Shown here: positions 46,680 through 46,820 of the stretch, one piece after another | How positions within the stretch are numbered: the stretch's first letter is position 1 | Layout of the letters: every line of letters begins with the position of its first letter | Origin: Aeromicrobium sp. Root344 | Lineage (GTDB): Bacteria > Actinomycetota > Actinomycetes > Propionibacteriales > Nocardioidaceae | Reading direction: 5' to 3' | NCBI RefSeq assembly: GCF_001425755.1 | Contig: NZ_LMDH01000001.1 | Span: 2,866,852 to 2,930,851 of the forward strand | Length of the DNA: 64,000 bases | The notes under the pieces: generated by a model | Databases searched by the model: none | What the model was told of the DNA's origin: nothing | The model's input: the letters and a program-made list of their open reading frames with translations, nothing else | Translations under genes and position numbers: made by a program

Positions 46680-46684
46680 ACTGA

Positions 46685-46695
46685 TAAACTACCGA
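46685..46695. promoter_or_regulatory. overlapping divergent -10 elements of the GST gene and leuA leader
   Basis: On the plus strand TAAACT (46685-46690) precedes the leader ATG (46701) by ten bases, or TACCGA (46690-46695) by five; on the minus strand TAGTTT (46691-46686) precedes the GST gene ATG by six. The hexamers interlock, so only one polymerase could bind at a time. Confidence 0.6.
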
Positions 46696-46700
46696 TCACT

Positions 46701-46748
46701 ATGCGGATCCAGAGCCTGCTCCTTCTCTGCCGCGTCGAGGTCCTCTAG
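46701..46748 (+). CDS. leucine-rich leader peptide of leuA
   Basis: Fifteen-residue ORF MRIQSLLLLCRVEVL with four consecutive Leu codons (46716-46727; CTG, CTC, CTT, CTC) and a fifth just before the stop. CTT is a rare codon in this GC-rich genome, which would enhance stalling when leucyl-tRNA is scarce. It ends 72 bases before leuA, inside the first arm of two competing RNA hairpins. Leu leader peptides are established regulators of leu operons. No conventional ribosome binding site is visible; the ATG is within ten bases of the promoter. Confidence 0.85.
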   Translation: MRIQSLLLLCRVEVL

Positions 46749-46814
46749 GTCGGACCCCTCGGCGCGGAGTTTGTCACGTACCGGCCGCTCACCAGCCAGA
46801 CAAACACCCCGAGG
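46736..46814 (+). promoter_or_regulatory. leuA leader: mutually exclusive hairpins, one sequestering the leuA RBS
   Basis: Structure A pairs CCTCGG (46757-46762) with CCGAGG (46809-46814), which includes the leuA ribosome binding site GAGG (46811-46814); it is continued inward by GG/CC (46766-67 with 46107-08 of the same downstream arm, i.e. 46807-46808) and by the perfect GTTTGTC/GACAAAC (46769-46775 / 46799-46805). Structure B pairs CGA and GGTCC (46736-46743) with GGACC and TCG (46752-46761), with the leader stop codon in the loop. Both need 46757-46761, so they exclude each other. A ribosome stalled on the Leu codons would permit B and free the RBS; one reaching the stop codon would melt B and allow A. 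Confidence 0.75.
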
Positions 46815-46820
46815 ATCCCG

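Follow-up and report, generated by a model that had tools for sequence, protein, structure and literature searches.

In enteric bacteria, the leu operon is governed by an attenuator in which the ribosome reads the Leu codons of a leader and which contains a terminator with a T-run. According to work attributed to Canestrari in 2020, mycobacterial leaderless short ORFs with a run of Cys codons before cys genes reportedly act by translation attenuation. Polycysteine leaderless short ORFs of mycobacteria are also cited in the excerpted text of PMC13236596, and an excerpt of PMC8079986 describes LeuL1 of Streptomyces lividans, a leaderless leader of 15 residues, MRFGLLLLSCRGEGL, which lies upstream of leuA without a typical terminator. 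The LEU element was described computationally before leuA in most of the Actinobacteria examined in 2005 (Seliverstov, Putzer, Gelfand, Lyubetsky; PMC1262725) and comprises a pseudoknot, a leader ORF that contains a Leu run, and a base stem in which this run pairs with the leuA Shine-Dalgarno (SD) sequence. Leader mutations in Streptomyces coelicolor are reported in that paper once as having ‘some effect’ unlike classical attenuation and elsewhere as having no influence; because the reported mutations did not fit, its authors left codon reading for a binding protein (PMC1262725). As told there, the control of actinobacterial leuA has been a puzzle since these paradoxical mutations.

In the window, that is, the whole 64,000-nucleotide stretch of Aeromicrobium sp. 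Root344 DNA analysed here, leuA (46821..48560; this and all further window features lie on the + strand) encodes a 2-isopropylmalate synthase of 579 aa (NF002991, 2.8e-266; TIGR00970, 2.3e-253) and is preceded, across a gap of 72 bases, by a leader ORF of 15 codons, MRIQSLLLLCRVEVL* (46701..46748), with the regulatory Leu codons CTG CTC CTT CTC at 46716..46727. A -10-like TAAACT (46685..46690) ends 10 nt 5′ of the leader ATG. The stop codon falls inside the loop of a stem, P1, formed by CCGCGTCGAGG (46730..46740) and CCTCGGCGCGG (46757..46767), and at its last base begins the 5′ arm of a pseudoknot, GGTCGG (46748..46753), the partner of which is CCGGCC (46781..46786). The leuA ribosome binding site (RBS), CCGAGGA (46809..46815), is the target of two further pairings: CCTCGG of the P1 3′ arm (46757-46762) can alternatively pair with CCGAGG (46809-46814) in a 6-bp helix, P2, and TCCTT of the Leu run (46720-46724) can pair with GAGGA (46811-46815) in a 5-bp base stem. 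Its position upstream of leuA, the Leu-run ORF, the pseudoknot and the 5-bp base stem identify this element as the LEU element, the structures having been compared with the 2005 text rather than with its aligned sequences; it is, therefore, not new in kind.

A preliminary description of the locus was accurate, in letters and coordinates, on the 15-codon ORF with four Leu codons, and the arms that it named, CGAGGTCC (46736-46743), GGACCCCTCG (46752-46761), CCTCGG and CCGAGG, pair as claimed. It overlooked the pseudoknot, the longer P1 (46730-46740/46757-46767), the stem between the Leu run and the SD, the -10-like site and the 2005 description. A terminator with a T-tract had been said to be missing, and indeed no hairpin followed by a T-run, nor any other terminator-like site, was detected before leuA on the + strand of 46500-46900; the – strand has one terminator-like site. 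Folding energy, computed from the single sequence, is ordinary (z -0.88 for 46701-46830 and -0.79 for 46728-46830), so that the element stands above chance by its conservation and not by its folding energy. Rfam covariance models, which cover known riboswitches, T-boxes and leaders, yielded no match in the window at the gathering score; relaxing the threshold to E 5 brought up a single match, on the opposite strand, that looks like chance. On ten relatives, the sole match was a cobalamin riboswitch elsewhere in locus L311.

The core of the element is common to the window and 13 aligned relatives of its genus and order, and all six pseudoknot pairs are standard in the 14 alignment rows, the window among them. 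Covariation of the paired arms had been named beforehand as a check, and covariation is what we found: across 90 chosen elements, 98.3% of the P1 cells are paired and 7 of the 11 pairs have changed on both sides, a result reached by none of 500 shuffles, with the proviso that this alignment was fitted to P1 and leans toward it. The pseudoknot was assessed by pairing each loop with its own downstream stretch and with the downstream stretches of other elements, a swapped-partner design which, here and below, does not fully remove phylogeny; the own partner was better in 120 of 135 elements of less than 80% identity (p 8e-19) and in 71 of 80 below 62%. Examples of the arms include GTCAGCCA/TGGCTGAC, GATAGGCC/GGCCTATC and GACCGGC/GCCGGTC.

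A further helix, GTTTGTC (46769..46775) with GACAAAC (46799..46805), had been thought to reinforce the pairing at the RBS. The two strands do pair perfectly in the window, yet the reinforcement is not general beyond close relatives: L003 and L004 keep the helix perfect and L005 keeps it with one G-U, whereas in the other 12 of 15 relatives, judged by the longest helix only, some carry a different helix nearby and some carry none. Beyond close relatives, a helix on either side of the pseudoknot 3′ arm was rejected as a general part, the own partner being better in 40 of 128 dissimilar elements, no better than swapped.

A first covariance model, built from the window and its 13 relatives, found the element in 66 of 396 genomes of the phylum (E 1e-3), and a second (R2), built from 84 matches, found it in 370 of 394 genomes of the class (E 1e-4), some of which had also given training sequences. 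Fourteen first-model loci (L066, L068-L070, L095-L104) were removed by eye as chance matches before genes were counted, L095 remaining in the R2 training alignment as a small contamination; second copies of known loci (e.g. L022, L023, L108, L111, L117, L131) were not recounted, and L203, with its poor leader frame, was excluded from the codon, pseudoknot and helix counts. The downstream gene, in the resulting 177 loci, is leuA in 134, leuB in 27, leuC in 9 and a stand-alone LeuA-dimer-domain-like gene in 4, with no gene identified in three (L163, L198, L201); the leuB-type share is not a frequency, because the added genomes were selected for two or more matches. Calls of leuB, leuC and ilvE were made by tblastn to reference proteins; NCBIfam was used to check two leuB, one leuC and a truncated ilvE, whose score fell below the curated cut-off. 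Codon and pairing statistics refer to these 177 loci, without 40 later ones, taken from the 80 matches listed. The later loci lie before leuA or a second leuA-like gene (their Leu runs sometimes shorter), before LeuA-domain genes (L214, L216) or, in 11 cases, are of a type with Leu, Val and Ile codons (L/V/I type).

Elements preceding leuC (L044, L054, L055, L056, L059, L065, L071, L078, L161) all belong, among the genomes sampled, to family f11, and those of the leuB type are spread over seven families (f1, f8, f9, f88, f89, f97, f99). Elements with Leu and Val codons stand before a gene resembling a stand-alone LeuA allosteric domain in family f7 (L062, L064, L196, L200, L214, L216); PF08502 was matched by the gene of L062, and Pfam gave nothing at E 0.001 for that of L064. 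In family f6, an additional element stands upstream of a second leuA-like gene in eight genomes (L204, L205, L207-L212), the product of this gene being only 50–54% identical to the window LeuA in the matched part. As far as the open-access literature searched shows, the copies of the element before leuC, the LeuA-domain gene and the microORF near leuB described below are new.

A leader ORF is present in 173 of 174 parsed elements (L115 has none, and one of the 173, in L203, is the poor frame mentioned above). The motif TANNNT ends 5–12 nt upstream of the leader start in 159 of 172 leaders, against 4.8% expected from shuffles, and SD-like letters precede seven leaders versus 119 of the 141 leuA and leuC genes, the starts of which were chosen partly by SD. 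The leader ORF is thus probably translated as a leaderless, or nearly leaderless, message. Such a short ORF near leuA could do no more than supply ribosomes to the gene, by reinitiation or coupling, the Leu codons being incidental, and the probably leaderless start would suit this explanation. It is rendered most implausible, however, by the location of the stop codon in the P1 loop and of the gene start a median 60 nt past the P1 3′ arm (141 elements), and by the fact that codon identity follows gene function.

Among the last six codons before P1, three or more are Leu in 126 of 133 leuA and in all nine leuC leaders, whereas all of Leu, Val and Ile occur there in 24 of 26 leuB-type leaders and in no leuA or leuC leader; a Val or Ile codon is found in 24 of the 133 leuA leaders. 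The leuB-type runs, for instance, CTC GTA GTA ATC, GTA CGC ATT CTT and TTC GTA CTC ATC, vary among leaders in both order and letters. Codons infrequent elsewhere are preferred in the regulatory runs. In leuA leaders, 213 of the 442 codons for Leu are CTT, versus 2.3% in 46 window ORFs selected by length and GC3, which bears out its earlier designation as a rare codon; in the leuB type, GTA accounts for 25 of 39 Val codons and ATT for 13 of 26 Ile codons, versus 2.9% and 2.1% in window ORFs, respectively. Position is maintained as well. A distance of 5 nt separates the end of the last regulatory codon from P1 in 114 of 133 leuA, 8 of 9 leuC, 18 of 26 leuB-type and all four LeuA-domain leaders. 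For 13 leuA leaders the count is 2 nt; the window leader is one of them, as its CTT occupies the usual place and the fourth Leu codon comes after it. The stop codon lies 13–19 nt past the P1 start in 167 of 171 leaders, a position partly fixed by the way in which leader ORFs were picked.

That codon identity follows the function of the downstream gene is predicted for a ribosome-read sensor and not for a protein-binding site, and suggests that the ribosome itself reads the amino-acid supply at this element. The 2005 proposal was that a protein (ML1624 orthologs) binds the LEU element and that the Leu run does no more than supply one strand of the base stem. It accords with the highly conserved sequence of P1, with the pairing of the Leu run to the SD and with the reported codon mutations that lacked the expected effect (PMC1262725), but we consider it improbable, given that before other genes the run becomes Val, Ile and Leu while the structure stays the same and no SD pairing is seen, and that the leader frame relative to P1 is preserved in 127 of 133 leuA, 9 of 9 leuC, 22 of 26 leuB-type and 4 of 4 LeuA-domain leaders. 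The codon swap amounts to a natural control, in which the structure is the same and the amino acids differ, and it counts for sensing by the ribosome and against the protein binder.

The window's own genome carries a second LEU-type element (locus L105; G000:C1:50828-50907, – strand; 40.9 bits, E 1.4e-5). Its leader, MRKQLVVIACRGRAS, has Leu-Val-Val-Ile codons, and the element lies upstream of a microORF, MEPRLMEWGPAHLRDEASTTELESSERPDDN, about 163 bases past the P1 3′ arm, and of leuB, which begins about 357 bases past the element start; the LeuB proteins of this genome and of Aeromicrobium sp. 9AM share 96% identity. Between leuB-type elements and leuB, the microORF comprises 20–53 codons, often ending in DRRDNGG-x or RPDDN, and is present in 27 of 27 leuB-type loci, 11 of 11 further L/V/I loci and 7 of 8 named loci, counts that lean upward because a loose motif was used to find it. 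In four of the further loci (L223, L224, L242, L243), leuB is 1.4–2.3 kb off, and in L241, which contains a masked stretch, leuB was not seen. Eighteen chosen members align; for six members searched, NCBIfam returned nothing and Pfam a single, unconvincing match below threshold. By eye, leuB often has its own -10-like site directly before the ATG, so that the microORF rather than leuB may be the direct target of the leuB-type element. The microORF is independent of the element, since similar ORFs also precede leuB in 32 of 72 other named loci. Thus, an uncharacterised microprotein is possibly under branched-chain amino acid control, also in the window's genome.

Of at least 568 named leuB loci, the best 80 were scanned, and ten of these matched the model at E 0.01. 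Eight of the ten have L/V/I-type leaders (Aeromicrobium, Nocardioides and MAGs of Nocardioidaceae or Propionibacteriales), and the other two are a chance-like match and L311 of Actinomadura viridilutea (4960-5200), in which a leader with Leu, Val and Ile codons, MRLSLVIIGWRAGD, and a hairpin with a T-run precede a cimA-like gene. From its sequence, the L311 leader looks like a classical attenuator.

How the reading of codons would be conveyed to the gene is approached through the RBS. In the leuA and leuC types, the P1 3′ arm paired better with the RBS region of its own element than with swapped ones in 57 of 103 elements (p 0.0034), as did the codon run in 66 of 103 (p 0.0033); both gains are small, three control pairings were no better than swapped, and an energy version of the test agrees. 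These tests weakly suggest that two partners, the Leu codons and the P1 3′ arm, can pair with the leuA/leuC RBS. In the leuB type, the corresponding pairings with the microORF SD are unsupported (own better in 14 and 10 of 25 elements, p 0.35 and 0.8; 25 of 27 loci, L192 and L203 being excluded), so that hiding of the RBS cannot hold as the common output and an output at transcription is possible there. A more general version of the latter idea is that the leader is read by the ribosome throughout, the untranslated, unfolded leader allowing Rho (or pausing and decay) to cut the message and the stalled ribosome together with P1 and the pseudoknot protecting it, with the SD pairings secondary. 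The codon run, P1, the pseudoknot and the spacing are indeed common to the leuA and microORF types while SD pairing is unsupported in the latter, and the distant L311 leader does combine Leu, Val and Ile codons with a hairpin and T-run; nevertheless, the window has no intrinsic terminator and both SD pairings beat swapped partners in the leuA/leuC types, and we regard this alternative as rather unlikely, albeit worth serious attention.

Modelling of the ribosome on the leader gave a mixed picture. Without the pseudoknot, the SD was more open with the ribosome stalled than at the stop codon in 72 of 104 cases (p 0.04 versus one shuffled-SD control), the close relatives L003 and L011 going against this trend; with the pseudoknot, it was more open in 61 of 105 (control p 0.06–0.11). 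The openness of the window SD, with the pseudoknot, was 0.20 with a stalled ribosome, 0.14 at the stop and 0.24–0.54 with no ribosome, and the last value, exceeding that of the stalled state, is not predicted by the mechanism set out below and counts against it, somewhat to the benefit of the transcriptional alternative. The preliminary description had proposed translation attenuation by hiding of the RBS. Of this, the codon-dependent design held, with no intrinsic terminator and with arms that extend to the leuA RBS and exclude each other, while the pairing of the P1 3′ arm with the RBS was weakly supported; the modelled ribosome had a weak effect, with hardly any in the window, and RBS hiding at leuA stays a proposal.

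On balance, we interpret the LEU element as a ribosome-read attenuator that most likely acts at translation, with a probability of roughly 0.55. The leader ORF, the putative -10 site, codon identity, P1, the pseudoknot and the spacing emerge from the comparison of genomes; what we infer is stalling, the direction of control and an output at translation, not through Rho or RNA decay. The transcript would start at or just 5′ of the leader ATG. With enough charged tRNA-Leu, the ribosome would pass the Leu codons, melt P1 and reach the stop codon in its loop, whereupon CCUCGG of the P1 3′ arm, now free, and the Leu run, no longer covered, would pair with the leuA SD region and close it. When Leu is short, the ribosome would halt on the Leu codons, covering the run and standing ahead of P1; P1 and the pseudoknot would remain folded and retain CCUCGG, leaving the SD region open. 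By ribosome geometry, the 5-nt spacing puts the first P1 pair approximately at the mRNA entry of a ribosome waiting at the last regulatory codon; a stalled ribosome would thus not yet have melted P1, whereas one at the stop codon would have melted the 5′ arm, and it is on these two positions that the proposed mechanism is built.

A broader view, for which we see about even odds, is that of a codon-programmable cassette, in which a codon run coupled to P1 and the pseudoknot is retuned by codon swap, the pseudoknot serves as a position gauge and varied outputs can be attached. The starved ribosome on the leaderless ORF would stop, with the last regulatory codon 5 nt before P1, just short of melting the knot, and a swap of three or four codons would suffice for retuning: Leu for leuA and leuC, Leu and Val for the stand-alone LeuA regulatory domain, and Leu, Val and Ile for an undescribed family of microproteins beside leuB-ilvE that would be controlled by branched-chain amino acids.

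Although the element is ordinary as a kind, the comparison of sequences reopens the question of its mechanism. Because the Leu codons may be both the sensor and the strand that closes the RBS, a codon mutation would alter two things at once, and this double role may offer a reason for the paradox of the leader mutations. Compared with the known systems, the enteric leu attenuator shares the Leu-codon leader; its T-run terminator has no counterpart in the window. The polycysteine ORFs are likewise leaderless and contain a run of the regulated amino acid, with Cys codons and cys genes in place of Leu and leuA. LeuL1, a leader of the LEU type, resembles the window leader in its 15 residues, its leaderless start, its position before leuA and the lack of a typical terminator; it comes from another genus, and the excerpted description contains no structural or codon-swap evidence (PMC8079986). 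The LEU element itself shares with the window the location before leuA, the Leu-run ORF, the pseudoknot and the base stem between the Leu run and the SD, and the 2005 paper likewise names no terminator (PMC1262725). That set comprised leuA and one transposase gene only, in about 20 genomes, with a protein binder preferred (PMC1262725); the present one extends beyond it to copies before leuC, the LeuA-domain gene and the microORF near leuB, with the codon run altered in the last two, and adds the -10-like site at the leader start and the swapped-partner tests.
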